NCBI GenBank assembly: GCA_001805645.1
Contig: MHGQ01000014.1
Location: 49,325 to 105,449 of the forward strand
Reading direction: 5' to 3'
Source of the DNA: Omnitrophica WOR_2 bacterium RIFCSPHIGHO2_02_FULL_50_17
GTDB lineage: Bacteria; Omnitrophota; Gorgyraeia; Zapsychrales; Zapsychraceae
Length of the DNA stretch: 56,125 nucleotides
Position numbers and translations under genes: made by a program. The notes below the pieces were generated by a model, which was not told where the DNA came from, ran no database searches, and worked only from the letters and a program-made list of their open reading frames with translations. Shown here piece after piece: positions 21,881 through 42,767 of the stretch (the first letter of the stretch is position 1; every line of letters begins with the position of its first letter).

Positions 21881-21886
21881 ATCCGT

Positions 21887-22810
21887 CTACCAGTCTTTAA
21901 GAACAGGCGCTGTGTCTCTTTTTCCCTGAAGAATATTTAAAAGACCTTGAGGTTCTTCCCTCTGCCCATAACCTTCCAGCAGCATCTCGGCCTCCTGTTG
22001 CGTCATCTCCTGCGCATTTCCGGCCCGGGGGGATTGTCCTTCCTGATGTCCACCCTGCGGTTGACTCTGAGGCTGACGCTGTGTCCGCTCATCAGATTCT
22101 GTTGACGGTTGATCCTGCCTGTCTTGTGCAGGCATTCCTTGTTCCGACTCCTGCTGACCTTGCTGCTGTTGGCCTTGGGTTTGTTGCTCCCGTTGGGCTT
22201 CTTGTCCCTCTGGGCCCTGCGACTCGGATTCGGCGGAACGTTCTTGTTTGTTCTCCTCTTTCGGGGGCTCCTGACGCTGCTGATTCTGCCGAGACTGTTT
22301 CTGCTTCTCCAGCAATCGCTCCAGTTCTTTCCCGACGAAATCGTGGTTATACCGCGCATCCTCATCGTTTTTGTTCACGGACAGCGCATTTTCGTACTGC
22401 TTCAATGCCTTTTGAAGCGAGGCAATCGCAAAAAAAATGTCCTTATCCTCTTTAGCTATGCCGGCCATGTAAAAGGCGTTGCCCAGATTATAATGCGCCT
22501 TCTCTTTTAAATCGTCATCCTCGCTTAAAAGGGCCTTCTGCAGATGTTCAATCGCGCGTTCATATTCATCCTGTTTATAAACGGCCGTCCCCATATTAAA
22601 GTGAATAATATCCGACTCAGGATTTTTTTGAAGGGCTTCCTGATACTTTTCGAGGGAATGTTCAAAATCACCTTTCTTATAAAGACGGTTGCCCTCGGCA
22701 ACGGCCATTCTCTGTGAGGCGGCATACGCCTCTGTAGAGAAAAGCGGCGTAAGTAAAAAAACTCCGCCCCCCACAAGGAGCATTATCTTGTTTTTCGGGT
22801 CGTTAACCAT
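21887..22810 (-). CDS. BatC-like TPR protein with Gln-rich tail
   Basis: 307 residues: signal peptide (KNKIMLLVGGGVFLL...AYA), three or four TPRs (about 33-165) with EGNRLYKKGDFEHSLEKYQEAL and KAHYNLGNAFYMAG, then a roughly 100-residue Gln/Glu/Pro-rich low-complexity tract ending in a short conserved LLEGYGQREEPQGLLN motif. That tail and motif are typical of BatC. The ATG at 22810 lies 28 nt inside batB. An alternative ATG at 22783 overlaps the batB stop as TAATG but would shorten the charged start of the signal peptide. Confidence 0.8.
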   Translation of the reverse strand: MVNDPKNKIMLLVGGGVFLLTPLFSTEAYAASQRMAVAEGNRLYKKGDFEHSLEKYQEALQKNPESDIIHFNMGTAVYKQDEYERAIEHLQKALLSEDDDLKEKAHYNLGNAFYMAGIAKEDKDIFFAIASLQKALKQYENALSVNKNDEDARYNHDFVGKELERLLEKQKQSRQNQQRQEPPKEENKQERSAESESQGPEGQEAQREQQTQGQQQQGQQESEQGMPAQDRQDQPSTESDERTQRQPQSQPQGGHQEGQSPRAGNAQEMTQQEAEMLLEGYGQREEPQGLLNILQGKRDTAPVLKDW

Positions 22811-23784
22811 GTCTCTGCAAAAAGCAAAAGAAATGCCATCGCCAAAGGAATCTGGAACCGGTCATAATAACGCTTTTCCTTCCGGCCTTCGATCTCCCGG
22901 CGCTCCAGCCTGGCCAATTCCTGCCCATAAATCAAATCCAAACCGAACGCCGCACCGCTGGCGCGGACATAAACCCCTCCCGTCGAAAGCGCAATCTCCT
23001 GAAGGAGTTTCTCATTGAGACGGGATTTGACAAAATTGCCCTCACGGTCTTTCAAAAATTCGGCCTCCCCGCTCTCAGAAGCGAATTGAATCAATTCCCC
23101 GTCTTGAGTGCCGATGCCGATACAATATATTTTGATTCCCATTTCTTTGGCCTTCCGCGCCTGGACCAAGGGATCGCCCTCAAGATTATCGCCGTCGGTG
23201 ATCATCACAATGACCTTATATTTATTAAGCACATGATCGTAGCCCCGCAGGGCCTCGGCAATAGCCCGCGATAAGTTGGTCCCCCCCCGAGGCACCGTCT
23301 CCACATTCAGGTCATTTAAGCTTAACAGAAATCCCCCATAATCCACCGTCAAGGGACAAATCATAAAGGCGTCGCCCGCGAAGGCGATGAGTCCGATGCG
23401 ATCCCCTTTTAATTTTTTAATGAGATCTTGGACAGCCAGTTTGGTGCGTTCCAGACGGTTGGGCTTCACATCCTGGGTCAGCATGCTCTTGGAGGTATCC
23501 ACAGCAACCAGGATATCCAAGCCCTGGCGCTTGATCTCCTCCCACTTGAATCCCCATTGAGGCCGCGCGAGGCCCAGAACAGAAAACGCCAAGACCCCCG
23601 TCAGCATAATATATTTCCCCGCCAGCCGTGCCCGGCGAAAGAACGGGACAATAGCATTCCAAAGGTGTTCCTGGGAAAACCGGTGTAAAATTTTTTTGTG
23701 ATACGCGATCCTCCCGTAAAGGAATACCCCCAGGATCAAGACACCCCACAATAAATGCAGCAGGAAAGGCTGCGCAAAACGCAT
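22783..23784 (-). CDS. BatB-like VWA-domain membrane protein
   Basis: 333 residues: two N-terminal transmembrane segments (about 8-25 and 55-72), a von Willebrand A domain with intact MIDAS (DTSKSM near residue 93, a central threonine in RGGTNLSRA, ITDGDN), and a C-terminal transmembrane helix. Paired with BatA, it forms the VWA pair of Bat operons. It lies 1 nt after the batA stop and overlaps batC. Confidence 0.85.
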   Translation of the reverse strand: MRFAQPFLLHLLWGVLILGVFLYGRIAYHKKILHRFSQEHLWNAIVPFFRRARLAGKYIMLTGVLAFSVLGLARPQWGFKWEEIKRQGLDILVAVDTSKSMLTQDVKPNRLERTKLAVQDLIKKLKGDRIGLIAFAGDAFMICPLTVDYGGFLLSLNDLNVETVPRGGTNLSRAIAEALRGYDHVLNKYKVIVMITDGDNLEGDPLVQARKAKEMGIKIYCIGIGTQDGELIQFASESGEAEFLKDREGNFVKSRLNEKLLQEIALSTGGVYVRASGAAFGLDLIYGQELARLERREIEGRKEKRYYDRFQIPLAMAFLLLFAETWLTTRKTR

Positions 23785-23785
23785 A

Positions 23786-24781
23786 TCATGGCACCTGAAA
23801 GAATAATGTCTGCGACAAAAGGATCTGGGCCAAGAGAATCCCTAAAGCCGCGAGAAGCACCCTGTCGAAGAGCTCCTCATATTCAAAATAACCGTGTTCC
23901 TCAATCTCTGTCTTCTCCAGGGCATCGATCTCCCTGTAAATCTGGCGCAACGACTCTGTATCGGTTGCCCGGAAATATTTCCCCGCCGTCACAGCAGCTA
24001 TTTTTTGCAGCGTCTCTTCATCCAAATCAATCTGGACCCTTTGATAGACTTTCCGTCCGTAGAAGTCCTGGACAGGAAAAGGCACAAGGCCTTTGGTACC
24101 GGCGCCGATGGTATAAATCTTGACCCCTAAAGCCTGGGCGACACGGGCCGCCGCAAGAGGATCGATCTCCCCTGCGTTATTCATCCCGTCCGTCAGGAGA
24201 ATAATAATCTTGCTCTTGGCCTCGCTTTTTTTCAAGCGGGCCAAAGACGAGGCGACGGCCGAACCGACCGCGGTCCCATCTTTGATGATCCCGAGGCTTA
24301 TAGGTCTTAAGTTGGCCGTCAGCCACGCGTAATCGGTGGTCAAGGGGCACACGGTATACGCCAAAGCCGCAAAAGTCACAAGCCCTATCTTATCGTGTTG
24401 GCGCTGTGCGATAAAGTCCTCAACCACATTTTTCACAATCTCCAGGCGGTTGACACGCTTACTGCCGATGGTAAAATCCTCTGCGGCCATACTTCCCGAG
24501 GAATCAATCGCCAGGATAATGTCGATGCCTTCCGTCTTATGAACCGCTTCCTTCAGCACAGAGCGCGGGCCGGCCAAGGCTATCAAAAACAAAACAAGGA
24601 CAATTCCCCGCAGGACATTCGGCACATGGCGAAACTTGACCTTCCATGAGACGGGAAGCGAGTCCACTAAACTCACCGAAGAAAAACGGACAGCGGCTTC
24701 TTTGCGTCTCTTCCTCAAGAAATACAAGATCCCTAAGGTAACAGGAATCAAAAAAAGAACCCCGAAATCCTTAAATACCAT
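23786..24781 (-). CDS. BatA-like VWA-domain membrane protein
   Basis: 331 residues with the same plan as BatB: transmembrane helices near 8-22 and 58-72, a VWA domain with MIDAS DSSGSM, the DGTAVGSAV threonine and LTDGMNN, then a C-terminal helix (RVLLAALGILLAQILLSQTLFF). The MIDAS should bind a divalent metal. It overlaps the preceding DUF4381 gene by 11 nt. Confidence 0.85.
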   Translation of the reverse strand: MVFKDFGVLFLIPVTLGILYFLRKRRKEAAVRFSSVSLVDSLPVSWKVKFRHVPNVLRGIVLVLFLIALAGPRSVLKEAVHKTEGIDIILAIDSSGSMAAEDFTIGSKRVNRLEIVKNVVEDFIAQRQHDKIGLVTFAALAYTVCPLTTDYAWLTANLRPISLGIIKDGTAVGSAVASSLARLKKSEAKSKIIILLTDGMNNAGEIDPLAAARVAQALGVKIYTIGAGTKGLVPFPVQDFYGRKVYQRVQIDLDEETLQKIAAVTAGKYFRATDTESLRQIYREIDALEKTEIEEHGYFEYEELFDRVLLAALGILLAQILLSQTLFFQVP

Positions 24782-25379
24782 GGCCTCTTCCTGTCATGCT
24801 TTCCACTTCCTTCTTCGTCTCATCAATAAGGCGCCTGGCCAATTGGGTATTCTTGTGCGCCTCCTCGATTCCCGGCCGATGGCGGGCGAATTTGACCATA
24901 TCGCAACAGACAAGGAATTCCCGCAGGACACCCCTTTGCATATCCGTCAACACCGGGGAGTCTTGAAGGGACACGAGGAATTCTTCTGTCGTCATCTCGG
25001 GCGCCCTGATGTTAAACTGCGCCTCGAAATAACGGCGCACAATATCCGACAACCGGCGGTAATACTCCTCCATTTTCCCTTGCGCCAGAAGGGGGCTTTT
25101 CGCCAGGGCCTCCAATTGCTCGCATGCCTCTTCCCAGGGAGTCTTCAATACCGTCTTCGGGGGCGGCTCTTTCTTGGTTTTCATCCATTGGCGGTACACA
25201 AAGAATATAAGACAAAAGATAACGCACAGCCCTAAAAAGACCAATAGAGGCGCGGGGTTGGCCGGTAAGGCAACAGGCGGCCTGACATCCCGGATATCCT
25301 CGGATCCTTGCGCCGCCCTCCCAGCCAGAAGGCACCCACTCCCTAAATATATCCCAAGCCCCTTCAGGAAACATCTCAT
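24771..25379 (-). CDS. DUF4381-like membrane protein of the Bat operon
   Basis: 202 residues: a signal or first helix (1-20), a Pro-rich stretch, one transmembrane helix (APLLVFLGLCVIFCLIFFVYRQW, about 43-65) and a cytoplasmic helical domain (EEYYRRLSDIVRRYFEAQFNIRAPEMTTEEFL). Proteins of this sort regularly sit between the DUF58 and BatA genes. Function unknown. Start overlaps the DUF58 stop as ATGA. Confidence 0.75.
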   Translation of the reverse strand: MRCFLKGLGIYLGSGCLLAGRAAQGSEDIRDVRPPVALPANPAPLLVFLGLCVIFCLIFFVYRQWMKTKKEPPPKTVLKTPWEEACEQLEALAKSPLLAQGKMEEYYRRLSDIVRRYFEAQFNIRAPEMTTEEFLVSLQDSPVLTDMQRGVLREFLVCCDMVKFARHRPGIEEAHKNTQLARRLIDETKKEVESMTGRGHGI

Positions 25380-26293
25380 GACCGCGCCCTTCGCCTTCGG
25401 CGTTTGAGAAAAAATTTTACCAAGGCATCGGCATAGGGAAGAGAGGTGTGAATATCGATGTGATCCATGCCGATGGCATTAAAAAGCTGTCCGCGTTTTT
25501 TAAGACGCTCTCTATTAAGCGTTTGATATTGAACCCGCAGCTCTCTGCTGGAGGAATCCACATACACCCGCTCTCCCGTCTCGGCATCTTCCAGAAGAAT
25601 CATCCCGCAATCGGGCATCTCACTCTCCCGGAGATCGTTTAAAGTAACGGCAATCATGTCATGGCGTTTATTCGCGATGGATAAGGCCTTTTTAAGCCGT
25701 TCCCGCGCATGATTCTGCCCTCTTGAATCGGCATGTTCCAGGAAATCCGAGACGAGGAAGGCAATCGTCTTTCGGGTCGTAACCTTGCTGAGGTATCCCA
25801 GGGCGCCCACAATGTCGGTAGTATGCCCCTGCGGCTGATAATAAAGCGCCTCGCGAATGATGCGCAAGACATGCTGTAGGCCTTTGCGCGGGGGGATAAA
25901 CTTTTCTATTCTGTCCGTAAAGACAATCAGCCCAACTCTATCGTTATTGCGGATGGCGGAAAAGGCCAGTGTTGCGGCCACCTCGGTCGCGAGCTGGCTC
26001 TTCAACATATTCACCGAGGCAAAACGGCACGAGGAAGAAAGATCAACTAGAATCATAACGGTGAGCTCCCGTTCCTCGACGTATTTCTTGACGTGCGGCT
26101 TTCCGGTGCGGGCCGTGACATTCCAGTCGATGGTGCGGATATCATCGCCGATCTGGTATTCCCGCACCTCGTCAAACTCAATGCCCCGCCCCTTAAAGAC
26201 GCTGTGATACTGGCCGGCAAAGACATCCGTCACCAAACGGGACGTTGTGATCTCGATGCGCCTGACTTTTTGAAAAAGCTCTTTGGGAATCAT
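25376..26293 (-). CDS. DUF58 family protein
   Basis: 305 residues. The DUF58 signature RGIEFDEVREYQIGDDIRTIDWNVTARTGKPHVKKYVEERE is near the N terminus, followed by a VWA-like core with a degenerate MIDAS (DLSSS) and a basic C terminus (FFLKRRRRRARS). DUF58 proteins are almost always co-encoded with MoxR ATPases and are thought to be their adaptors or substrates. It is 6 nt after moxR. Confidence 0.9.
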   Translation of the reverse strand: MIPKELFQKVRRIEITTSRLVTDVFAGQYHSVFKGRGIEFDEVREYQIGDDIRTIDWNVTARTGKPHVKKYVEERELTVMILVDLSSSCRFASVNMLKSQLATEVAATLAFSAIRNNDRVGLIVFTDRIEKFIPPRKGLQHVLRIIREALYYQPQGHTTDIVGALGYLSKVTTRKTIAFLVSDFLEHADSRGQNHARERLKKALSIANKRHDMIAVTLNDLRESEMPDCGMILLEDAETGERVYVDSSSRELRVQYQTLNRERLKKRGQLFNAIGMDHIDIHTSLPYADALVKFFLKRRRRRARS

Positions 26294-26299
26294 CGCGGG

Positions 26300-27295
26300 T
26301 TACGGCACTTCGACCTCATCGAAAATAGCCTTAATGAGATCCTCCGAGGTTTTTTCTTCGGCCTCGGCCTCGTAACTGATGATCACGCGATGGCGCAGGA
26401 CGTCCATGCCGATGGACTTGACATCCTGCGGCGTGACGTAGCCGCGCCCTTGCAAGAAGGCATAGGCCTTGGCGGCAAGGGTAAGATAAATACTGGCCCG
26501 GGGCGAGGCCCCGTAATGGATAAGACCTTTAAGTTCGCTCAAACGATAATTCTGGGGACTGCGGGTAGCATCCACGATATCCACGATGTATTTCTGAATT
26601 TTCTCGTCGATATAAATCTCATCGACCACGGAACGGGCGCGCAAGAGATCCTGAGGGGTGATGATGGTCTGAATGCCAATCGCCGGACTTGTGAAAGACA
26701 TCCTCTGCAATATCTTCAATTCCTCGTCTTTGTTGGGATAATCAACCTTGACCTTCAGCATAAAGCGATCGACCTGGGCCTCGGGCAGAGGATACGTCCC
26801 TTCCTGCTCGATGGGGTTTTGGGTCGCCAAAACCAGAAAGGGTTCCTCCAGCCTGAAGGTCTCCTCGCCGATCGTGATCTGCCGCTCCTGCATGGCCTCT
26901 AAGAGGGCGCTCTGGACCTTGGCCGGGGCGCGGTTAATCTCGTCGGCAAGAATGATATTGGCAAAGAGAGGCCCTTTTTTGACCTTAAACTCCCCTGTGC
27001 GCTGGTCATAAATGAGGGTCCCGGTCAAATCCGCCGGCAGCATATCCGGCGTAAACTGCAGGCGCCGGAATTTTGTCTGAATCGTCGCGGAGATGGTCTT
27101 GACGGCTGTCGTTTTGGCAAGACCCGGGACGCCTTCCAAAAGGATATGGCCGTTGGCCAAAAGCCCTACCAGGAGCCGTTCCAGGAGATCCCTCTGCCCC
27201 ACGATAACCTTTTGGGTCTCCAATAAAATCCCATCGATAAAACTGCTCTCCTTTTTAACCTTTTCGTTAATGGCGGTGATGTCTGAATGGGTCAT
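26300..27295 (-). CDS. MoxR-family AAA+ ATPase
   Basis: 331 residues: Walker A GVPGLAKTTAVKTI (near residue 56), Walker B ILADEINRAP, sensor 1 ATQNPIEQEGTYPLPEAQVDRF, and a C-terminal lid with GASPRASIYLTLAAKAYA. MoxR ATPases act as chaperones that activate or assemble VWA-domain partners, here BatA/BatB. GGAGGAAGAGC lies directly before the ATG. A 37-nt gap separates it from the upstream phosphorylase-like gene. Confidence 0.93.
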   Translation of the reverse strand: MTHSDITAINEKVKKESSFIDGILLETQKVIVGQRDLLERLLVGLLANGHILLEGVPGLAKTTAVKTISATIQTKFRRLQFTPDMLPADLTGTLIYDQRTGEFKVKKGPLFANIILADEINRAPAKVQSALLEAMQERQITIGEETFRLEEPFLVLATQNPIEQEGTYPLPEAQVDRFMLKVKVDYPNKDEELKILQRMSFTSPAIGIQTIITPQDLLRARSVVDEIYIDEKIQKYIVDIVDATRSPQNYRLSELKGLIHYGASPRASIYLTLAAKAYAFLQGRGYVTPQDVKSIGMDVLRHRVIISYEAEAEEKTSEDLIKAIFDEVEVP

Positions 27296-27332: not shown

Positions 27333-30300
27333 CTATTCGAAATAAACGTCGATGCGCCGGACTTTTTTATCCCGGATATCCGATGCGTACGGCGCAGGTA
27401 TCGTTGCCGAAGAAATAACCACAGCCTGCGCGCAACCCGGATAAGTCAGGCGGACCTCGCGGATGCGCGTCCTATAGGTATCCCGACGTTTCGGATTATG
27501 GTAAACAACGAGAATCCATCCCAAGAAATTAAAGGCATAAACGTTGGCAGGCAGCGGGATTTTCTCCGTCCCGTCGGATGCGCGGAAATCATCGAGCGTT
27601 GAGGCCTTCGTGGTAAACAGCCAGCCTGCCAGGATGGGCTTTAAGGTTAGGCTCAACCCCTCAGAGGAGCTAAATGTAAAGGGATTTTTCCCCGTATTCA
27701 TATGAAGCCATATGCTTAAAAATTCGGCCGTGCTCCCCGACAGGCGGGCCACAAACCCCTGGCCATGCAGGGCGCTGTCCTCATGGATACTGCTGACCAA
27801 AAAGGAGGAATTCTCCAAGATGCTTCGGCCGTACTGCTGCGGCTTAAGAAAAGGAATGAACACGTGGCGGAAATTCTCGTAGAACTCGTCATATAATCCG
27901 CCCCTGAGGAGCTCCAGCATCAGTTTATATTCCATATGAAGCCAGATAGAACCGTTCTCCAGCCAGCCGGGAGGGAAAATACGCGTGCGTCCGATCTCCT
28001 CGGTCTCTTGAGACAAATCGGCATTGACCCGGTACATCTTTAATTTTTTATCATAAAGCCCGGTTCGCCGCAGCTTTTGATAGAGAGCGCGCGCCGCTTG
28101 AGGGCCTTCCGCCATCCGCAGGGCATGCACATAGCCCTCCAGAAAAGGCGGCAGGGTATGCCTTTCGAACTCCAACGGCCACACATGACCGCTGGGTTTC
28201 CCGCCGTCCTCCAGCTTTTCGTAACGGCCAACCTCATAATAAAAATAGGTCGCCAAGAACCCTTCTGCCTCATGGGCCGAAACAATGGCCTTTTCCGTCT
28301 TAGCAATAACAAGATCCAGAAAATCTTTAATCTCGGCAACGGAGAATTCTCTTTCGCTTCCGTCGATGCCAAGACGGATTTGATGACGATAATGTTCTTT
28401 CAAATCGTTCGATTTAAACCAATACCCTGAAGGATCGCATTCCAGAGAAAGCACTTGACGTAACTTCACGATAAAATCCGCTAACTCCTCGAAAATTCCT
28501 ACACGGTCGTTGTCGTTAAGGGCAAGCCGGCTGAAGGCCTTAAGGAGAAATCGACTCATCCGTTTGATCTCAAAGGTCTCGCTCACAGAAGACCCCAAAA
28601 GCCCGGGGAGACCATTGAGGGCATCGTACCAGTTGGGTTTGTCCGCCTCCATCTCGACTCCTATGCCGCCGGGATCCAGCGAAGCAATCTTATTGGCGAT
28701 AAGACACAGCAGTTTACAGACAAGATGCGTATGGTAAACCCCGCCTTCCCCTTTCTGAGTACGCAGGAGATTCCCCCGTTCCGTCATCTTATGACTGTGC
28801 GGGTCTTTGGCCACGGATTTATATTGCCGCACCCCCTGGGCCGTGAGGATGTAGCGCTGGGTGCGCGGCACGATATAATGAGTATTCTGGTAAAAATGAA
28901 ACACCTTCCTTTCCAACAACAGGCCGCGCAGGTCCTCCGGATATAGACCTAAATAACTTTCGATTAAGTCCAGATTGTACGTCCAGTGGTCCGTCCAAAA
29001 TCCCTCGCCGTGCTCGGCGCCCTCCTGGGTGTGGCATATCTCTAAAATGAGCCCCAAAAATTTCGGATGAGAAATCTTTAAAGTAACGGCTTTTCGATCC
29101 AGGTATTCCAGGAGGGTGCCCGGCGAAAAACTCTTCGAGAGAAATTCCTTCAGATGTTCTCGTCCCTCTTGAACGTATTGCTCGAGGATATCGCTTAACC
29201 GCTGATGGTCTGTAACCGTCAGGACCGTGCCCTTGACGATAAGCGGATTATAGCCGTCGGCCTGCAGGAGGTTGAGGAAATTGACCACATGGCTGTCGCG
29301 GACATCCGTATTAAACCACACATCATTACGGCGATTTTGGTTAACATCCCGGTAATTGCCGTTCCCTTGCGAATAAAACGTCGGAGAAACCACGAAGTAA
29401 TTGTAATCCCGTTCCAGGTCCCCGTGTTTACGGCTGTAGACATTGAACGTAACGCCCCCTTCACTTGTCTTCACCGAAACGGGAAGCCCCCCGCGCAGGA
29501 TATTATCCAAAAACGTCTGCGTCGTATATAAATCCAGCTCGCGGCAGGAACTTTGCGTCACGGCAAAATTCCTTATCCCGTCGATAATCGCCTCGTTCCT
29601 TTGGGCCTTACGCTCCACGAAACCGGATTGTCTAACCTGCCGCACAATCCTATTAAGTCTTTGCACATCCCGCGCATAACCAAATAAGGAAATAATCTCC
29701 TTTTCCTGATGCGGCTTTAACGGATAGCGCGCGTAGCTGAAAGCCGAAGGCATGCGATTGCTTGTCTGCTGCAGGGAAGGTCCCTGGAATTTCGGATCGA
29801 GGAACCGGACGGGCGCAACGAAATCCTGGGATGCCCCGAAGATACAGGAAGCCTCCGCAATCGGCTCCAGCAGCTGCGCCCCTTGGGAGTGTGGGTCGAA
29901 ACTGAAGAAAAAATTGCCTTCCTGGATATGCGTCACCTGGGGCGTATCAGCCACCTCAACGTTGAGCTGATAAAACGGCGCCTTCTTTTCTAAATTGCGC
30001 ACCTTCACCCACGCCTCGACGGTGCGGGACATGTTCTTCCCCATCCAGTCCTTTAAACCGTAAGGGACAATGACAGGAAGGCCGTCCATAATCTCAATTG
30101 TATACCTGCGGCGGCCGGTGTTCATGACCCTGACCCGCCGCACAATGGCCGCAAACGGCTCCTCCGGCATCGTAAAATAATTTACGCGCACCTCTAAGCC
30201 CAGATCCTTATTGACCTCCACAAGCGTAAGGTCATGCGCGGAGATTATCAAACGCTGCGTCTTGGCAAAATCAGTCCCTTGTAAATAATTTTGAAAAGGC

Positions 30301-30608
30301 TCCCAATAATATGTCTTTGTGCCTGTTGCGGCCTTGATGAAGGTGCGGAACCCCTGAAGGGCTGTCAAGCGGTAGGATTTATTCGCCGGCTGAAATTCCA
30401 TCATGGCCTTATCTTTGGACTCGATGCCGAAGCCTGCGATACACTGCCCGCGATTCACGTAAAAAACCCACATCGGGATTCCCCACAAGCCGGCGATCCC
30501 AGGGAAAAAGTTGCTGAAGGGTTTACTGAAATTGTAATGATCGATGACAAAACAGCCGTTGTCATCCAGAAAATAATTCACAGATGCCGGTCTATTCATT
30601 CGGCCCAT
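27333..30608 (-). CDS. Large GH94-like phosphorylase/glycoside hydrolase (clan GH-Q type)
   Basis: 1091-residue protein. The N-terminal segment (YFLDDNGCFVIDHY; FFPGIAGLWGIPMWVFYVNRG) matches a set of approximately 1100-residue bacterial proteins usually labelled cellobiose phosphorylase. In the C-terminal half, DKPNWYDALNGLPGLLGSS corresponds by position to the DWND-type catalytic segment of GH94. An N-terminal beta-sandwich plus (alpha/alpha)6 barrel is expected. GH94, GH149 and GH161 all share this plan; the length fits GH161-like beta-glucan phosphorylases, but I cannot choose. No signal peptide is seen, so probably cytoplasmic. The ATG at 30608 overlaps the deacetylase gene; an in-frame ATG at 30599 is an alternative. 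Confidence 0.7.
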   Translation of the reverse strand: MGRMNRPASVNYFLDDNGCFVIDHYNFSKPFSNFFPGIAGLWGIPMWVFYVNRGQCIAGFGIESKDKAMMEFQPANKSYRLTALQGFRTFIKAATGTKTYYWEPFQNYLQGTDFAKTQRLIISAHDLTLVEVNKDLGLEVRVNYFTMPEEPFAAIVRRVRVMNTGRRRYTIEIMDGLPVIVPYGLKDWMGKNMSRTVEAWVKVRNLEKKAPFYQLNVEVADTPQVTHIQEGNFFFSFDPHSQGAQLLEPIAEASCIFGASQDFVAPVRFLDPKFQGPSLQQTSNRMPSAFSYARYPLKPHQEKEIISLFGYARDVQRLNRIVRQVRQSGFVERKAQRNEAIIDGIRNFAVTQSSCRELDLYTTQTFLDNILRGGLPVSVKTSEGGVTFNVYSRKHGDLERDYNYFVVSPTFYSQGNGNYRDVNQNRRNDVWFNTDVRDSHVVNFLNLLQADGYNPLIVKGTVLTVTDHQRLSDILEQYVQEGREHLKEFLSKSFSPGTLLEYLDRKAVTLKISHPKFLGLILEICHTQEGAEHGEGFWTDHWTYNLDLIESYLGLYPEDLRGLLLERKVFHFYQNTHYIVPRTQRYILTAQGVRQYKSVAKDPHSHKMTERGNLLRTQKGEGGVYHTHLVCKLLCLIANKIASLDPGGIGVEMEADKPNWYDALNGLPGLLGSSVSETFEIKRMSRFLLKAFSRLALNDNDRVGIFEELADFIVKLRQVLSLECDPSGYWFKSNDLKEHYRHQIRLGIDGSEREFSVAEIKDFLDLVIAKTEKAIVSAHEAEGFLATYFYYEVGRYEKLEDGGKPSGHVWPLEFERHTLPPFLEGYVHALRMAEGPQAARALYQKLRRTGLYDKKLKMYRVNADLSQETEEIGRTRIFPPGWLENGSIWLHMEYKLMLELLRGGLYDEFYENFRHVFIPFLKPQQYGRSILENSSFLVSSIHEDSALHGQGFVARLSGSTAEFLSIWLHMNTGKNPFTFSSSEGLSLTLKPILAGWLFTTKASTLDDFRASDGTEKIPLPANVYAFNFLGWILVVYHNPKRRDTYRTRIREVRLTYPGCAQAVVISSATIPAPYASDIRDKKVRRIDVYFE

Positions 30609-33481: not shown

Positions 33482-35464
33482 TTAGAAAGGCTGATCCCCC
33501 TTGAAAATGGCATCCAGGATGCCGTTAATGACGGCTTCCTCTGGCCGGACGTCCTTTTCCTGGGAATCTGAAGACGGTTGTCCGGACTCCTGTATCTGAG
33601 AGGGCTCCCCTTGGGCATCGGCATTGGAGGACTCTTCTTCGATATCAAGGGCGCGAAAGATAACCTTTTTCAGCTCTTCCCTGCCTTTACTGCGGATCAC
33701 TTGCCTGCCGACATCCCCCACATCCGGATAAATCCGCAGATCCCTGAACCTGCCCTGATAAGGCATAAGGGGAATATGAATCCGATTGTCCTCGTCCTGG
33801 AGGTACGCAAACTCCTCTACGGCCGTTACCATACCGGCAGATAAATCTTCAAGGATATAGAAATCGGCCTTGAGGACCAGATTCTGAGCGAAATCCATCT
33901 GGCCGTTTGCCGTCATCAGAAATCCATCCGCGCCGAATGCCGCTTTAGGAACAAAAATGGTGTCGTCCTGCATTTTTACCGACAATTCAACCAAATCCAA
34001 AGTCGTCTCTTCTTTTTTCAGGATATCCTTATACCTCTCCGGCAGGTCCGCCTCTATCTGAGACGCCAGATGAGGGATAAAGGATATTTTATCAAGGACA
34101 AACCTCAATAAATTAACATTGCTGAATTTGCCCTCCCGGACCTCAAACGCGCCTTCCCCTTTCCAAGATGCCGTTAGAGATACCGAATCTTCCGGCTCCT
34201 GCCCCTGCCCTTCCCCGCTGAAATCACCGAGGAGCTTCCCTGCCAATATCACCGGCCCGGCCCCCTCCTCCAGCACCGGCATGACCCGGGAAGGAATCAA
34301 CTCCGCCAGTTGAATGTCTTCGATATGAAGATCATAAAAAAATGCCCGTTCTCTTAAATAATCCTCCACACGCCCCTGGCCGGCCACTTTCCCGGCGCCA
34401 TAAAAAAAAGACAGCGTTTTTATATCCAAATCTGATTCCGTCATCTGAAAGGCAACCTGGATGCCTTCAAAAGGTTTTTGCAGCATCTCGACCTTGACTT
34501 TGCCGTCCGTTAACTGCCCCTCGGCGGACAAGTCCAAAAGACCGGTGGGGCCGGCCTTCAACTGAGGAACGGTGACCTGCAATTTCCCCTCCGGATTCCC
34601 TTCCAGCCTTAAGTTTCCCCTCAGGAGGGCATAAAAAGGCGCCTTTCTTATCTGCAGGCGCGCTAAATCCGTCTCGACTTTAAAATCACTCATATGAACC
34701 TGCTGATTATCCAAATCAAGGAATAAATTGCCGCGGCCCCGGATATTGGCCTGATCGGCCCAAACGGAACAGTTGAATCGAAACGCCGACGGTCTCTTCA
34801 AAGACAAATCCGTGATTTGAAAATCAATTCCCTCGACGGGGATAACCCAGGGCGGGTCATATCCTTGGTCCGTAAAAGTCAAGGAACCGTCCTCAATACG
34901 AAACGCTTGAATAAAAAACTCTAAAGGCGCATCTCGCCCGCCCTCCTCTTCCGCCTGAGCCGCATAAACTACGGAGGAAAAAGGGAGATGGAGCCCCACG
35001 GGCATATCCGCCGTACCTTTGGGTTCCGCCCGCGGGGCAGGACTTTTACCGGAAGGCATGGATAATTCCGGCAGATTGATTTTCCCTTCGGCGGTGCGGA
35101 TCAGCTGAAGAGCGGGGCTGCGAATCTCAGCCCGAGAAATATGAATCTTCTTTCTAATAAGAAAATCAAAGATGTTCACATCCAGATAAACAGAGGCGGC
35201 CGTCAAAAAAGGACCTGCGGAGAATGCCGGGTCATCTAAAATGGATACCCCCTGCACATTGAGGATAATGCCTTTATCGGCCGCAATGCCAAGCTGAAGT
35301 CCTTGAATCCGCACCTCCCGTCCCAGCGCGGAGCCTATGTACCGGGCAAGATAAGCACGATACTGATCGATATTATACGTCTTTAAAAAAACGAATGCGG
35401 CTGTTCCCAAAAGGAGAATGAAAACAAAAAAAACAAGAATGACAATCTTGACGGTTTTCTTCAT
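33482..35464 (-). CDS. AsmA-family protein
   Basis: 660 residues: one N-terminal transmembrane helix (about 7-29), then the AsmA start motif ([19 protein letters not shown]) and a long beta-rich region with [35 protein letters not shown]-type repeats. The C-terminal part resembles the AsmA C-terminal domain, followed by an acidic, Ser/Gln-rich tail. AsmA-like proteins are inner-membrane-anchored, span the periplasm and are implicated in phospholipid transport to the outer membrane. Start overlaps the upstream stop as ATGA. Confidence 0.8.
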
Positions 35465-37692
35465 CGGAGTTTGTCTAAAAGCTCCTCAAATTTTTTAATA
35501 TCCGTAAGGGGGAGTTTGCAGGCATGATTTTCGCAGACATAGGCCGTCACCTGCCCCTCCCGGGGGATCTGATCCTTGATAAAAGGGGCCATCGCGACAA
35601 TCTGATTTTTTTCTTTTGCTCCCGTCTCGTGAAGCATGATAACCGCGCGGGGAAGAAAACGAGCGGAGACCGCATCCCTCATGGCCTGAACCCGCTCATC
35701 GCTGCGGAGAGCGGCAATGACGATTTCCTGCGAAGGCCCCTGCGCAAAATCAAAGGCAATCAGCACCTGCGCGTAAGAGCCCGGATTACGCTCAATGGCG
35801 GCGGCAAAGGCTTGAAAAAAACTTTTAAACTTCTCCTCAAGGCCTTTATCCAGCGTTATATGATAAAGCCTCGCCAAATCAAGCGCCGCCACTCCATTGC
35901 CCGAGGCCACAGCCCCGTCATAAACGATTTTCGGCCGGAACAAAAGTTTCTCGGCATCATCGGCCGTAAAATAAAAACCTCCGTCTGTCTCGTCCCAAAA
36001 CAAATGGATCATCTCTTCGGTCAAACGTCGGGCCTGCTTAAGATACACAGCCGAAAACGTGGCCTCATACACATCCAGCAGCCCTTGAATAAAAAAAGCG
36101 TAATCTTCAATTGTTCCCACCCCCCCCGCTTCCCCCTGCCTGTAACGATGCCGTAGACGTCCCTTTTCATCGACAAAGCGTTTAAGAATAAAATCAGCCG
36201 CCCCTTGCGCCGCCTCTTGATAACGGGGCTCATGGAGCACACGCGATCCAAAGGCCAGAGAGGAAATCATAAGTCCGTTCCAGTCAACAAGGATTTTGTC
36301 GTCCAGAAAGGGTCGGGGTCTTCCCTGCCGGTATCGAAACAGCTTCTCCCGGGAGCGTCTTAAGACGGCCTCCACATCGGAAAGGGACTCTTGAAAATAC
36401 GCGGCGGTCTCCTGCAAATCTTTTTCCGTATAAAGAATGTTCTTCCCTTGGAATTCCCCATAGGGATCCGTTTCGGCATTGCCGTCGGGCTTCACGCCAA
36501 AGTAATAATTAAAAATTTCAGCCTCTCTCGCATCCAAGATGCGGACGATTTCCGCCTCTTGCCACAGATAAAATGCCCCTTCCTTCTTCTGAGAAGACTG
36601 AGCAGGATCGAGACTGTCCGCATCTTCAGCGGAATAAAATCCACCGTCCGGAGACTGCATATCCCGTAAAACATAATCTAGAATCTCGCGGGCGATGCGG
36701 GCATAGAGCTCTTTTTTCGTTACCTGATAGGCTTCCAGATATGCCCGGGAGAGCGCGGCCTGGTCATAAAGCATTTTTTCGAAATGAGGGATCCGCCACC
36801 TCCGGTCGGTCGCATACCGGTGAAATCCCCCGCCCAGATGATCGTAGAGGCCGCCTGCGGCCATTTGCTCGAGAGTATGCTCCACCATGGCGAGGGCCTC
36901 TGTGCTGCCATACCTTTGCCCATACCGCAGCAAAAAAGACAGATGATGTCCAGATGGAAACTTGGGGGCCGTCCCAAACCCGCCAAAATGAGAATCATAA
37001 GACATGTTCAATGCGCCAAAACCAGCCTTAAGGACGTCGTCTTTCAATTCCCCTCCCTGAGGTTGTCGGGACGCCTCCTGCCGCAGCACATCCGCTATCG
37101 AATCCCCGGACTGGGCAATCCGGCTGCGCTCGTTCTGCCAGGCATCGTAGACACTGCGCAATATATCCATGAGTCCCGGTGAGCCTCCTTGCGCGTAAAG
37201 AGGAAAATACGTTCCGCCGAAAAACGGTTTGCCCTCCGGCGTCAAAAATACCGTCAGAGGCCATCCGCCCTGGCCTGTCATGGCCATAACCGCCGTCATA
37301 TAGATGTGATCAATATCCGGCCGCTCCTCCCGGTCGACTTTAATAGGGACAAAATAATTATTGATGATTTGAGCCGCTTCCTGATTTTCGAAAGACTCGT
37401 GCTCCATGACATGACACCAATGACAGGTGGAATATCCGACAGACAAAAAGATCGGTTTATCTTCGGCTTTGGCCTTTTCAAAGGCCTCCTTGCCCCATGG
37501 ATACCAGTCCACCGGATTATCGGCATGCTGCAGGAGGTAGGGACTTTTTTCACGGCTCAAACGATTCTGGAACTCGGACCGGGGAGGCATCAGCGGGCCT
37601 TTCGTTTCCTGGTCTTGAGCAAAAAGCGGAAGACAAAAAATAATAAAAAAAAATATATATAAGGATAGATAATATCGCAGAGGACAACTCAC
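35461..37692 (-). CDS. YyaL/DUF255 thioredoxin-domain protein with signal peptide
   Basis: 743 residues. After an N-terminal hydrophobic stretch (about 6-24, ending LFAQ) comes the DUF255 thioredoxin-like domain: [25 protein letters not shown], then the active-site CHWCHVM and [19 protein letters not shown]. The rest is an (alpha/alpha) toroid ([31 protein letters not shown]). Most homologues are cytoplasmic and lack a signal peptide, so export here is unusual. Start is GTG, overlapping the upstream stop as GTGA. Function of the family is unsettled. Confidence 0.88.
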
Positions 37693-38045
37693 GGGATAAT
37701 CAATGTCTCTTCTTTATACCCGGCCTCGCTGCAGACGGCCTTAACACGGATGACATCGCCGGAGGAGGCCTCCATGGGGACATCCTGAACAAGAGTGGTC
37801 GATGTTGTCTGTTTGGCATAAGGAAAATTTTCTATCGGCGCATCATTCTTGTAAACATAAAGCCTGCGGATATGATGCCCCTTTTGATCATGCGTCACAT
37901 GCCCGATCTCGGCATGAAGGACTTTTGTCTGGGAATCGTATTGAAGCTCAATAGTCGCCGGGGGATGCCCCCATGCCAGTCGGCCCGACGGCAAAATCAG
38001 GGCCAAGACAATAAACACCCTCAACCGATCAGGGCATCGGAACAT
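37689..38045 (-). CDS. Small secreted SoxZ/desulfoferrodoxin-like beta-sandwich protein
   Basis: 118 residues: signal peptide (about 1-26, ending AWG), then [42 protein letters not shown] and a C-terminal [20 protein letters not shown]. The pattern of strands, with HV-H..HHI and a late cysteine, recalls small periplasmic proteins with SoxZ or superoxide-reductase-like immunoglobulin folds. The complete metal-ligand set of superoxide reductase is not evident, so function is open. Lies 2 nt after the giant TPR gene, AGGAAA before the ATG. Confidence 0.6.
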
Positions 38046-38047
38046 AG

Positions 38048-41000
38048 CTATTTTCCTGTCTCAATGGTATCCAGGGTCTGGGCCATAATATCTGAACGTG
38101 CAGGAGGCGTCTTTGCATTCGACGCCCATGGCGCCGACGGGGACCGTCGAGATCCCATCGCCGTCTTCCGACGAATCTCGGCAAGATAACTTTCCGTGCG
38201 TTCATAACCGGGACGCAAGCCGTTAATCTCTACGAATAACTCCCATGCCTCTTCGTAAGACCCCTCCTTATATAATTTAACGGCTTTTTTATATGTTTGC
38301 TTGAGTTGAGCCTGGATCGTCTTTTGGATCTCCCGCCGCTTTGCCCGCAATTCTTCCTGCGGACTAAAAAAAGATTGTAAAGGTTTGGGTTGGGGTTGAG
38401 AAGCCTGCCCCCTGGCGGACTCAACGTGTGCCGGTTTTTTCCGCTGTTCATCTCGTTTTTCAACAGGAGCCTCTGCTTTCTCGTCGTCCTTTTTCATTAC
38501 TGACTTTTCAATGCGCCCGGGGCGTTTTGGTCTGCCCAGCTTCTCCTTCATGGACTGCCGCTTTTCTTGGGCCAGCCTCTGGTCAATCTTCTGCAGATAG
38601 TCCTTTGTTGTCTTGTAGCCCGGGATTAACCTGTCCACCTCAATCCATTTCTCCTGTGCCTGAGCCAACTGATTGGCCTCATAAAATCGCAAGGCCTGCT
38701 GAAAGAGCTCCTCGGCTTTTAAACGGAACTGTCGATCAACCCTGTCATCCGTTATAGGGACACGGGCATCCCCTTGGCCAGAATCTTTTTTAGGCTTCCC
38801 TGCCTGTTGTGCGATATCTTCATCGATACGGATCAAATAATTGCGCGTAGCCTTATATCCCGGCAAAAGCGCCTCAACCTCAATAAATTTTTGTTTTGCC
38901 CCCTCGAGATCCAGAGACGTATATCGTCTCGTAGCCTCCGCATATTTCGCCTTCGCTTCTTTTTGCAGACGATGACGGCGATCTTCTTCTTTCTTTTGGA
39001 TGAACACTCGATCCTCCTCGTCCATGCCTTGAACCAGCGCCTCCGACCGGGTAGAGGATAGTTTCTCCTTGGGGGGGGACAACTGCTCCTGGCGCTTCCA
39101 GGCTAATTTTTCTTTCCTCACCTGCCGCGCAAAATCATCCTGCTCCTTCTCAAACTCATGCGTATACTGTTTTCGTATCTCCTCGTTGATCCGCCCTACA
39201 TATCCATCCGTCGATTTATAATGCGGATAGGATTGTTTGATCTTTAAGAATTTCTCCCTCGCCTCAGGATAATATTTATGCTTAAAAAGCAATATCCCCT
39301 CCCTATAAAACGAAGCCGCATCTTTAAAGGAGGCGATGCGCCCGGGGGTCTCTAATCTCTTTGTCTGATCCCTCCGAGAAGGCTGCCGTTCGGTCTGCCT
39401 GCGCTCATTTTTCTCTCGCTTGTATTCTTCCTTTTCAATCACAGAGGCGATATGCGCCAAATATTTCTCCGTCGATCTGTAACCCGGGTAAATCTGCTGA
39501 ATCTCCTGAAAACGCCCTTCAGCCATTTCCAAGAGATGCCCCTTGTAATAGGTTTGAGCCTCTTGATACAGCGAAGCAACGTATTTTTCCAGCCGCGCCT
39601 TTCGATCCTGCTTGATCCGTTCCAGCGTTTCTTTTAATTTGGCCTTTCCTTGCTGGCGGACAACAGCTCTCTGCTTCTCTTCCCTCCCTTGAGAAAGTCT
39701 CTTTTCTTTTAACGGACGCTCATATTCCCGTTTTTGCCGCGCCTTCTGATATTCCTCCTCATTTTTGATATCCACATTGATACGCGCCAGGAATTTATCT
39801 GTGGATTTATAACCCGGCACGGCGTCCGCAATTTTCTTGAAAATTTGTTTGGCCCTTCTAAAATCCCTCTTTTGATAAAAATCCCTCGCCTCATCGTAAA
39901 GCCCCTGTGTCTCAGTCTGAAGCGCCTGCAAGCGTTGCTGCTTTTCATCATGCTCTTGTCTGGTTTCCTTAAAACGAGTTGAGGCCATCTGGCGGTGTTC
40001 CTTCTTAAGACGTCGGCGCTCTTCGCGGGCGATGTCCTCGGCGGTCCGCTCCAGGAATTTTGCCGTCGACCTGTACCCCGAAAGAATCTTCTCGACTTCC
40101 TGAAAATAAAAGCGGGCCTTTTCATAGTCCCCCTTCTCGTAGGACGCCCGTCCCTTCTGATAAATAGTCTCGGCCTCTTCTTTCAAACGGTCCAGATTAA
40201 GCCTTTCGCTTCCTTCAACAGTTTTATGCCATTCCTCCTGTTGTTTTTTACTGGCCAGGGCCTCGGCTTGAAGCCTCTCTTCAAGAGAACGGCGTTCTTC
40301 CTTCTTGATATCCCCTTCGATACGCTCCAGATACTGATTTGTCAACTTGTAATCTGGATAAATGAATGCCACATCTTCAAAACTCGCCTTGGCCTGCTCG
40401 AATTGCCGCGCCTGATACTCCTCAAAAGCCCTTTGGTAAACCGGATCGGCCTGCGCCTGGAGGTCTTCTATGCGCCTTTTCTCGCTTTCTTCAACGGATT
40501 GCCGAAACTGCGCCTCCTCTTCCTGAGGCTCGAATGCCTCCTTTTCAGGCTGACTTTGCGCGAGATCCTCATCCAATTTTTGTTTTTCGCTCCGGCTATC
40601 TTCCTCCAGCATCAGATCGTTGATGATGGATAAATAATTCTCCGTATCCTTATATCCGGCAGAGGCCGCCTTCACCCGCAGGAAGGCCTCCTGGGCCTGC
40701 GTATATTTTTTCTCTTCAAAGAAAGACAGACCGGATTGATACGCCTGTTCAACGCTATCTTCCCCTTTAACGACCACAATCTCTTTCTCTTCAGATGCAG
40801 CACCTCTCAACTGCTCTGAACGCTCAATGATCCCGATAGCCTTCTGCCATAATTTCTGGGCCTCGGTGTAGTTCCCCTCCTCAAAAAGACGAATCGCTTC
40901 CCGATTATAAGCCTCTGCCTTCTCGATCAGCTTATCCCAGGGGACGGTCAGATCCTCGGCGCGCTCCGGCAGAGGCTTCATCTGTTTCTTTTCTTGGGAA

Positions 41001-41107
41001 GGAATCCCTGAATCATCCTCCAATGAGATTTGAGCAAATGCGGGGACAAAAAACAGTAACGCGACAAGGAACGTCTCAAAAAATATCCTGTAAAACTTCA
41101 TTTTCAT
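38048..41107 (-). CDS. Giant exported TPR/coiled-coil repeat protein, nine modules
   Basis: 1019 residues: signal peptide (1-25, ending AFA), a leading TPR-like unit near 68-95, then nine repeats of about 48 residues. Each repeat reads roughly Y-x2-A-x2-F/Y-Y-x5-A-x3-F-x2-I-x5-GYKST-x2-YL-x2-I-x2-I. Each ends in an E/K-rich stretch, and charged linkers of 30-60 residues (Lys/Glu/Arg/Gln) separate most modules and should form helices or coiled coils. The final 35 residues are Ser/Pro/Ala-rich. Not a match to any named family I recognise. The design suggests an extended periplasmic scaffold. It is the first gene before the SoxZ-like, YyaL-like and AsmA genes. Confidence 0.8.
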   Translation of the reverse strand: MKMKFYRIFFETFLVALLFFVPAFAQISLEDDSGIPSQEKKQMKPLPERAEDLTVPWDKLIEKAEAYNREAIRLFEEGNYTEAQKLWQKAIGIIERSEQLRGAASEEKEIVVVKGEDSVEQAYQSGLSFFEEKKYTQAQEAFLRVKAASAGYKDTENYLSIINDLMLEEDSRSEKQKLDEDLAQSQPEKEAFEPQEEEAQFRQSVEESEKRRIEDLQAQADPVYQRAFEEYQARQFEQAKASFEDVAFIYPDYKLTNQYLERIEGDIKKEERRSLEERLQAEALASKKQQEEWHKTVEGSERLNLDRLKEEAETIYQKGRASYEKGDYEKARFYFQEVEKILSGYRSTAKFLERTAEDIAREERRRLKKEHRQMASTRFKETRQEHDEKQQRLQALQTETQGLYDEARDFYQKRDFRRAKQIFKKIADAVPGYKSTDKFLARINVDIKNEEEYQKARQKREYERPLKEKRLSQGREEKQRAVVRQQGKAKLKETLERIKQDRKARLEKYVASLYQEAQTYYKGHLLEMAEGRFQEIQQIYPGYRSTEKYLAHIASVIEKEEYKREKNERRQTERQPSRRDQTKRLETPGRIASFKDAASFYREGILLFKHKYYPEAREKFLKIKQSYPHYKSTDGYVGRINEEIRKQYTHEFEKEQDDFARQVRKEKLAWKRQEQLSPPKEKLSSTRSEALVQGMDEEDRVFIQKKEEDRRHRLQKEAKAKYAEATRRYTSLDLEGAKQKFIEVEALLPGYKATRNYLIRIDEDIAQQAGKPKKDSGQGDARVPITDDRVDRQFRLKAEELFQQALRFYEANQLAQAQEKWIEVDRLIPGYKTTKDYLQKIDQRLAQEKRQSMKEKLGRPKRPGRIEKSVMKKDDEKAEAPVEKRDEQRKKPAHVESARGQASQPQPKPLQSFFSPQEELRAKRREIQKTIQAQLKQTYKKAVKLYKEGSYEEAWELFVEINGLRPGYERTESYLAEIRRKTAMGSRRSPSAPWASNAKTPPARSDIMAQTLDTIETGK

Positions 41108-41258: not shown

Positions 41259-42767
41259 TTATTCTTCCAGGTCTTTTTCGGCGAAGACCTCGGCCGTAAA
41301 GATTTCGATTCTTGTTTTAGGATCCTTCCAGGCATCCGCAGGAAGACCGGCCTTTTGTACGCACAATTGAGACAAAAACTCTTCTTTCGTCCAGCCTGTC
41401 TCCGTTGCTACCTGAGGAAGGAAAAGCCCCTGATGCAAGGGCCCTTGGCTGATGATCACCCCATGTTTACCTAAGACAATCTCATCTGTATTCTTAATAA
41501 TGCGGGGCATGGAGAGCACCGAGACCTCCACATCAATCGCATCAAACTCCTGCGGCGTAACCGGCCGGAACCGGGGGTCTTTTGTTGCCGAAGAAATCGC
41601 CATATCCCGCACCGTCAAATACAAAGGGCCGCGTCCGAGGATATTGCCGATACAGCCGCGCAGATGGCCGGCTTTACGAATCGTGACAAACGCCCCCTCT
41701 TCTTTCATCAGACGCGGATCGGTTTCCTCAACAGCAAGGACATTTCCCTTTTGGACATACTCAGAGATCGTATCCTGCGCGATTTTTAAAAGGCGCTTCT
41801 TTTGTCCCGGCGTCAAAGATCCTTCAGACACTTTCTGTTCTTTCCCATAATTCTGTTGCAAAGATTCCCCCGATTCGTCGTCGTAAATAACAATCGAGGC
41901 ATACCCCACGACCCTGTTCTTATCACCTGTCACATCCCCCGAGTTGGCATGACGAAGGACATCAACATGCCTCAACCCTTTTTGTCTGGCGTAAAGTAAC
42001 GCGGCCGTCATCGGGACAACGCCGCACATCTCCATTGTGGTCCTTGACTGACAAGCCTTCCAGATCTCCTCTGCCTTCAACCCCTGCACGGCCTCCAGGG
42101 TGCGTCGATCCATCTGGCGCGCCTTGGCATCATCATGGTAATGAGACAAATCAGTGCTCACGACGATAAGGACGTCTTTGCGGCTGCCAATCACTTTATG
42201 CAAAACTGCCGCGAACTTTTCCAAAAGCTGAAAACCCGGCTGCCCCATAATCACGGGGACAATCTTGAAATTCTTGAAGGCCTTCTGAAGAAACGGAATC
42301 TCAACCTCTAAAGAATGTTCCTGGGCGAAGGCCTGCGGGGCATCATAAAATTTCTCATCCTCGGCCATCAGCTGCCGGGCCAACGGCGTATCCACTTCAA
42401 CGACGCCTAAAGGCGTCTGAAAACCTCCCTCTTCCCAAATGGAGATCCCGTCAAACCCGAAGTAATGACTGGGAGCCAGGATGATAACGGTTTTGTACGG
42501 ATTCTGGCTGGCGGCCTTAAATCCGTACGCCGCCACCCCTCCGGAATACATATAACCGGCATGGGGAGCGACCATGATATCAATGTGTTTATCGAAAGGG
42601 CGGACAGCGGCCTTTTGCATGAACTCGTCGATCTCAGCCGATAATCGTTGAGGATTGGCTGTATAAAACTGGCCGCTCACATTAGGCGACTTGATTCTTT
42701 GATCACCTAGAGCCATGGGAGAACCCCCTATGACCAAAAATGTTAACAGGATAAAAATGCGTCTCAT
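41259..42767 (-). CDS. Exported MEMO-AMMECR1 fusion (AmmeMemoRadiSam proteins B and A)
   Basis: 502 residues: signal peptide (about 1-21, ending ALG), a MEMO1 domain (about 25-300) and an AMMECR1 domain (about 320-495). MEMO metal ligands are conserved: His in APHAGYMYSG, His in APSHYFGFD, and Cys in TTMEMCGVVPM, with STDLSHYHDD between. AMMECR1 is marked by GAFVTIRKAGHLRGCIGN and RDMAISSATKDPRF. In genomes with AmmeMemoRadiSam systems these proteins accompany a radical SAM enzyme, which is not in this window. Fusion plus export is noteworthy because radical SAM chemistry is cytoplasmic. Start overlaps the MauE-like stop as ATGA. Confidence 0.92.
   Translation of the reverse strand: MRRIFILLTFLVIGGSPMALGDQRIKSPNVSGQFYTANPQRLSAEIDEFMQKAAVRPFDKHIDIMVAPHAGYMYSGGVAAYGFKAASQNPYKTVIILAPSHYFGFDGISIWEEGGFQTPLGVVEVDTPLARQLMAEDEKFYDAPQAFAQEHSLEVEIPFLQKAFKNFKIVPVIMGQPGFQLLEKFAAVLHKVIGSRKDVLIVVSTDLSHYHDDAKARQMDRRTLEAVQGLKAEEIWKACQSRTTMEMCGVVPMTAALLYARQKGLRHVDVLRHANSGDVTGDKNRVVGYASIVIYDDESGESLQQNYGKEQKVSEGSLTPGQKKRLLKIAQDTISEYVQKGNVLAVEETDPRLMKEEGAFVTIRKAGHLRGCIGNILGRGPLYLTVRDMAISSATKDPRFRPVTPQEFDAIDVEVSVLSMPRIIKNTDEIVLGKHGVIISQGPLHQGLFLPQVATETGWTKEEFLSQLCVQKAGLPADAWKDPKTRIEIFTAEVFAEKDLEE

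Follow-up and report, generated by a model that had tools for sequence, protein, structure and literature searches.

What is the repeated unit of the protein encoded at this locus, and could an array of such units form an elongated ruler or scaffold in the periplasm? The stretch of DNA analyzed here (56,125 nucleotides, referred to as the window) comes from Omnitrophica WOR_2 bacterium RIFCSPHIGHO2_02_FULL_50_17. The original prediction described nine repeats of about 48 residues that share a GYKST..YL half regarded as foreign to tetratricopeptide repeats (TPRs), seven of them followed by charged linkers, behind a leading TPR-like unit without this half. The open reading frame lies exactly where it was predicted and the nine units were confirmed (Table 1), with a unit length corrected to 49–53 residues, and A20, Y34, and T37 (53 alignment columns) are invariant across all nine units, whereas the GYKST motif varies (DYKLT, HYKST, GYERT). 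The seven charged linkers follow units 1–6 and 8; unit 7 is followed by a short Gly/Pro/Asp-rich linker and unit 9 by a noncharged tail. The leading TPR is real and was modeled well by AlphaFold2 (AF2; pLDDT of about 92 at residues 61–90 in the full-length, two-row model). A family motif, RQxELxxERE, stands before module 9 (EELRAKRRE in the window protein), and the C-terminal tail is modeled as a short helix with low confidence. The protein has no cysteines.

Table 1. Features of the array gene and of its two most informative neighbors, in window positions.
Feature	Position	Strand	Basis or remark
Whole ORF, secreted TPR-module array protein	38048..41107	(-)	1019 aa, ATG start
Putative signal peptide, residues 1–25 (MKMKFYRIFFETFLVALLFFVPAFA followed by Q), no lipobox	41033..41107	(-)	by eye from sequence
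Leading TPR, residues 57–107, without GYKST helix	40787..40939	(-)	Pfam; AF2
Module 1, residues 119–171	40595..40753	(-)	unit alignment
Module 2, residues 220–272	40292..40450	(-)	unit alignment
Linker 2-3, charged helix, spacing 75, one Pro/Gly	40175..40291	(-)	continuous helix residues 256–324 (full-length model)
Module 3, residues 312–364	40016..40174	(-)	unit alignment; AF2
Linker 3-4, charged helix, spacing 71, no Pro/Gly	39911..40015	(-)	continuous helix, both AF2 models
Module 4, residues 400–452	39752..39910	(-)	unit alignment; AF2
Module 5, residues 510–562	39422..39580	(-)	unit alignment; AF2
Module 6, residues 597–649	39161..39319	(-)	unit alignment
Module 7, residues 718–770	38798..38956	(-)	unit alignment
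Module 8, residues 798–850	38558..38716	(-)	unit alignment
Module 9, conserved last module, residues 935–987	38147..38305	(-)	unit alignment
Conserved C-terminal tail ARSDIMAQTLDTIETGK, family motif R..I...-LD..E	38051..38101	(-)	family alignment
AsmA/DUF748-like gene, downstream, most conserved neighbor	33482..35464	(-)	46/51 loci
Memo-AMMECR1 fusion gene, immediately upstream	41259..42767	(-)	nearest recognized upstream neighbor in 12/44 loci

That the array is no chance pattern follows from a match of the protein to Pfam TPR_2 (PF07719) at 1.6e-10, with four of the nine units matching singly, and from clear homologs in 40 of 55 relatives. A search for the module motif in the other proteins of the organism's own 1.92 Mb genome, suggested as a follow-up, gave nothing above noise (next best E = 0.0016).

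To identify the unit, a profile of the nine units was compared with the PDB. Columns 1–26/32 match the two helices (A and B) of consensus TPRs, and columns 4–51 align to FKBP52 (1qz2; E = 3.7e-4) and, weakly, to SPAG1 (7bev; E = 0.06), in regions known to be the last TPR plus the capping helix of those domains. Based on these alignments, GYKST..YL is the start of an ordinary capping helix, and the case for a non-TPR element with a repeat name of its own falls away. The unit shows the helix-turn-helix of about 34 residues typical of a TPR, with small residues at positions 8 and 20 and large residues at 24 and 27, and AF2 models it as helix-turn-helix-loop-helix. Profile comparison and modeling thus agree on a single TPR plus cap, which upholds the earlier view that the unit is something other than a tandem TPR pair. 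Each unit is accordingly read, from alignment and model, as one canonical TPR of two helices with a C-terminal capping helix, and it is neither a new fold nor a tandem pair. The direct tandem repeats that define a TPR superhelix are absent: single TPRs are spaced by linkers of 27–89 residues and AF2 separates them. Foldseek against the PDB returned TPR proteins as local matches of a modeled three-module stretch and no match at E < 0.001 for that stretch as a whole, and full-length phmmer against the PDB gave weak single-TPR matches to designed proteins only. BamD/YfiO was considered as an identity for the protein and rejected (40.9 bits, compared with an NCBIfam cut-off of 81.4; one TPR only).

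Structure models were then used to examine the junctions between units. For modules 3–5 (residues 306–572), modeled from an alignment whose rows were overlapping three-module stretches of this protein, the AF2 model has a mean pLDDT of 89.9 and seven helices. Each module has a short helix B, and helices 43–107 and 131–217 each comprise a cap, a linker, and the next helix A; the pLDDT falls to about 79–80 in linker 4-5. The full-length model is poor (pLDDT 61.7), having been built from two rows because L070 was the sole homolog among the loci obtained from the Memo-AMMECR1 alignment scan; a contig scan with the window protein itself gave no matches, the linker peptides being too variable. Even so, this model shows no break in the helices of linkers 2-3 and 3-4, and it does show one at linker 4-5. 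Linkers 2-3 and 3-4 are the two among the eight junctions of the window protein that contain at most one Pro/Gly; the others contain 2 to 11, and four of these six are out of the phase described later. In the models, modules 2-3-4 look rigidly joined, with helix breakers at the other junctions. A helix continuous between neighboring three-helix repeats, as in spectrin and EzrA, is thus seen in the AF2 model at helix-compatible junctions only, bearing in mind AF2's readiness to model charged stretches as helices. Within its family, the window protein is of mixed character and partly hinged, and full phase-locking is a property of the family more than of this protein.

Family-wide, Pro/Gly-free linkers are 53.5% charged and carry opposite-charge pairs at i+3/i+4 (z = 10 to 15; K/R to E at +4 strongest), with no hydrophobic seam at a period of 3.5 or 3.6 residues. 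These linkers therefore have the features by which single α-helices (SAHs) are recognized, namely, richness in E/K/R, i+3/i+4 charge pairs, and absence of a seam (PMC5347031). Among the linkers of the window protein, only 2-3 and 3-4 show these features well.

If such linkers are continuous helices, their length would set the rotation of one bead relative to the preceding one. In 63 proteins from the order to which the organism belongs, with 626 units in all, we took the spacing of two neighboring units as the distance between T37 of the first and A20 of the second. The strongest period between 2.2 and 20 residues was 3.62, one turn of a helix (417 spacings; first seen in 290). Splitting the linkers by helix breakers (Pro/Gly) provided an internal control: R(3.6) was 0.81 for Pro/Gly-free linkers (n = 191), 0.61 for linkers with one Pro/Gly (n = 81), and 0.06 for linkers with two or more (n = 145). 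Since spacings are inherited, module-linker-module segments were clustered by identity, which gave R = 0.75 (n = 54; Rayleigh 5e-14) at 45% identity and R = 0.73 (n = 17; p = 1e-4) at 40%, and each distinct Pro/Gly-free spacing counted once gave R = 0.45 (n = 25; p = 0.006), all of these p-values being optimistic because spacings are inherited together. Each distinct Pro/Gly-rich spacing counted once gave R = 0.01 (n = 64). No period was seen when the two classes of distinct spacings were pooled, the many one-off lengths of breaker-containing linkers swamping it, and the period was also lost when all linkers were clustered together at 40% or 35% identity.

These results bear on one alternative, an ordinary multi-TPR scaffold in which the units stack as a superhelix or fold back and the charged stretches are flexible spacers. 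All unit-level matches are indeed TPRs, and many junctions of the window protein carry Pro/Gly. On the other hand, the linkers are too long for neighbors to stack directly, AF2 puts the modules apart on long helices, and flexible spacers would not be length-quantized as the helix-compatible linkers are; we consider this scaffold quite unlikely.

The quantization could also be a relic of common descent, with a few ancestral unit lengths (63, 92, 99, and 128 residues) copied without selection on phase. A few spacings (46, 75, 82, and 111) do dominate and are common to orthologous positions. However, neighboring units in an array are on average only about 33 to 35% identical and the spacing is kept, which indicates that length is conserved while sequence drifts. 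Moreover, spacings private to families f1 (111) and f7 (46) lie on one phase, and the distinct-value test is positive for linkers without Pro/Gly and flat for those with them. Families f1, f7, and f5 have phases of 0.79, 0.74, and 0.75, though their spacings differ in part; L171 and L170, more distant proteins of the same class, fit the same phase, and the single spacing of L173 is off it. We regard descent as an improbable explanation, albeit one to be weighed slightly above the flexible scaffold.

A third possibility is that the rods pair as coiled coils, whose repeats would then dictate the linker lengths. Indels in steps of 7 and 11 residues would suit coiled coils, and an 18-residue (7+11) coiled coil also has a period of 3.6. 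Against this stand the lower R(3.5) of 0.44, compared with 0.81 for R(3.6), in Pro/Gly-free linkers and the absence of a seam at either period, so that pairing of this kind seems to us hardly probable. The architecture that we prefer, a rod of TPR beads on single-helix struts, is very probable.

The array protein is present in 66 of the 81 genomes of the order (32 of the 38 good ones), and genomes with arrays come mainly from this order and from family f38 of the same class; genomes from the rest of the phylum have one unit or a few each. Relatives range from 152 to 2272 aa and from 1 to 22 units, some copies being cut by contig ends. Most of them conserve the last unit, its upstream motif, the C-terminal tail (with an invariant LD), and the N-terminal segment; conservation of the tail was judged from the alignment, as a strict regex misses many members, including the window protein. 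In other families of the class, the short relatives L172, L173, and L174 have one to three modules together with a helical segment at the N terminus (LK.L...), perhaps the ancestral form of the array.

The AsmA/DUF748-like gene is the most constant neighbor of the array gene (Table 1). A PilZ gene (35 loci) and a DUF255 thioredoxin-like gene (21 loci) are also found downstream, and MauE/DoxX and DsbA-like genes occur upstream. Several other genes of the window deserve mention in their own right. The Memo-AMMECR1 protein has a signal-like N terminus and, lying near DsbA-like and MauE/DoxX genes, possibly belongs to a periplasmic redox cluster. A small secreted-looking protein with weak similarity to desulfoferrodoxin (E = 0.05) is encoded at 37689–38045 (-) and adjoins the array gene in the relatives L044, L048, L061, L062, L063, and L068 as well. 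The 1091-residue protein encoded at 27333–30608 (-) has no Pfam match and is 54 to 67% identical across the order; its sub-cut-off match to GH149 β-1,3-glucan phosphorylase (7.8e-33) possibly marks a new branch. Finally, 19248–27295 (-) holds an apparently complete Bat-type operon (MoxR, DUF58, DUF4381, two VWA, TPR, BatD, and TPR-SH3).

An outer membrane is very probable for this organism, whose genome has genes for an Omp85 protein and seven secretins, and together with a signal peptide read by eye this points to a periplasmic location. At 1.5 Å per helical residue, the upper bound on extended length is about 81 nm for the window protein and up to about 217 nm for its relatives. A typical periplasm is several times shorter, which means that the protein would run along the envelope, be folded at its hinges, or extend to the outside. 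Of the elongated periplasmic scaffold or ruler envisaged in the original prediction, the elongated shape and the scaffold-like character are borne out and the envelope is the probable site (signal peptide, diderm genome), whereas a ruler spanning the periplasm is unlikely at these lengths, given also that unit number varies from 1 to 22 at the same locus. Conserved ends combined with a variable number of beads suggest a tether or scaffold.

Our best guess is that the protein forms a scaffold in the envelope, next to an AsmA-like lipid transporter. AsmA-like proteins of Escherichia coli have been proposed to carry phospholipids between membranes (PMC8593681), and the suggested link is drawn from gene neighborhood, which is not proof of joint function. 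The neighborhood could instead point to a secretion system of the exopolysaccharide or pilus type, in which the protein would be a TPR scaffold comparable to the TPR domain of PgaA; the periplasmic TPRs of PgaA are reported to bind polymer (PMC9384988). A polysaccharide deacetylase and the PilZ-domain gene in the conserved neighborhood would fit this idea, as would a protein from a genome of the same class, in which a secretin encoded in a type IV pilus-like operon is fused to four such modules (L170). Nevertheless, the conserved neighborhood here has no synthase, secretin, or pilus gene, the seven secretins of the genome are encoded elsewhere and lack modules, and YqeY and the GH149-like gene of this run resemble housekeeping genes, which together make a secretion scaffold improbable. 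The L170 protein is of interest in itself (L170:4148-6502, genome G270): the four TPR–cap modules follow the barrel domain of the secretin (PF00263; 7.7e-46), the gene adjoins PilB-like ATPase and prepilin-like genes, and its Pro/Gly-free spacings (53, 53) share the helical phase.

The bead fold, helical continuity, spacing quantization, distribution, and gene neighborhood are supported by computation; the periplasmic location, rigidity in vivo, a monomeric state, docking partners, and the link to lipid transport are what we infer. In the proposed mechanism, the protein would be a secreted, probably periplasmic rod of three-helix beads (TPR plus cap) joined by long charged single α-helices, the capping helix of each bead running unbroken through the linker to become the next helix A. 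How far each bead is turned against the preceding one would depend on linker length, and selection would hold the linker at whole helical turns wherever it is a real helix, Pro/Gly junctions acting as hinges. The conserved N- and C-terminal segments would presumably dock to fixed envelope partners, and bead number would set the reach of the rod and its number of binding sites. Most likely, the rod would serve as an extended tether or scaffold that lies along the envelope and acts together with the AsmA-like lipid-transport protein whose gene is just downstream. This function is tentative and, taken by itself, rather doubtful; architecture and function taken together are slightly favored. The wider claim, that these are lineage-specific envelope rods holding TPR beads in fixed rotational register on single α-helical struts selected for whole-turn length, with bead number (1–22) free and per-step geometry conserved, in a spectrin-like layout made of different parts, appears to us evenly balanced.

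If this is true, selection acts on the helical phase between distant modules, a trait for whose reading linker lengths suffice, and the spacings constitute rare sequence-level evidence that charged linkers act as rigid helices in cells. Such proteins would also provide a natural template for rods with adjustable length and fixed orientation. For an uncultured phylum, they add a conserved, length-variable envelope protein whose gene has a constant neighbor of the AsmA lipid-transport type. TPRs, SAHs, spectrin-like shared helices (PMC4243239), and phase-dependent kinase linkers (PMC6798134) are each known; a small literature search of open papers found no array in which capped TPRs sit on phase-locked single helices.

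Comparison with these known systems shows what is shared and what differs. Helices A and B and the capping helix of known TPR domains match the window units column by column, but in those domains several repeats form one stacked superhelix that is capped once, at its end, whereas here a cap follows every single repeat and extends into a long helix. SAH domains, for example in myosin-6 (PMC5347031), resemble the family linkers in E/K/R richness, i+3/i+4 pairing, and lack of a seam; they usually form one spacer between two domains, whereas here the strut is repeated, with conserved phase, in an array. Spectrin and the bacterial spectrin-like protein EzrA (PMC4243239) likewise have three-helix beads, a helix C that continues as the next helix A, and a variable bead number. 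Their beads are contiguous bundles of about 100 residues, whereas the units described here have about 50 residues with bare charged helix between them, and no sequence or fold relation to spectrin or EzrA was found, neither being among the best 50 Foldseek PDB matches listed. The coiled-coil linkers of sensor histidine kinases (PMC6798134) are, like those of the array, limited in length by helical phase, the step being the seven-residue heptad of a dimer in the kinases and 3.62 residues, with no seam, in the present family.
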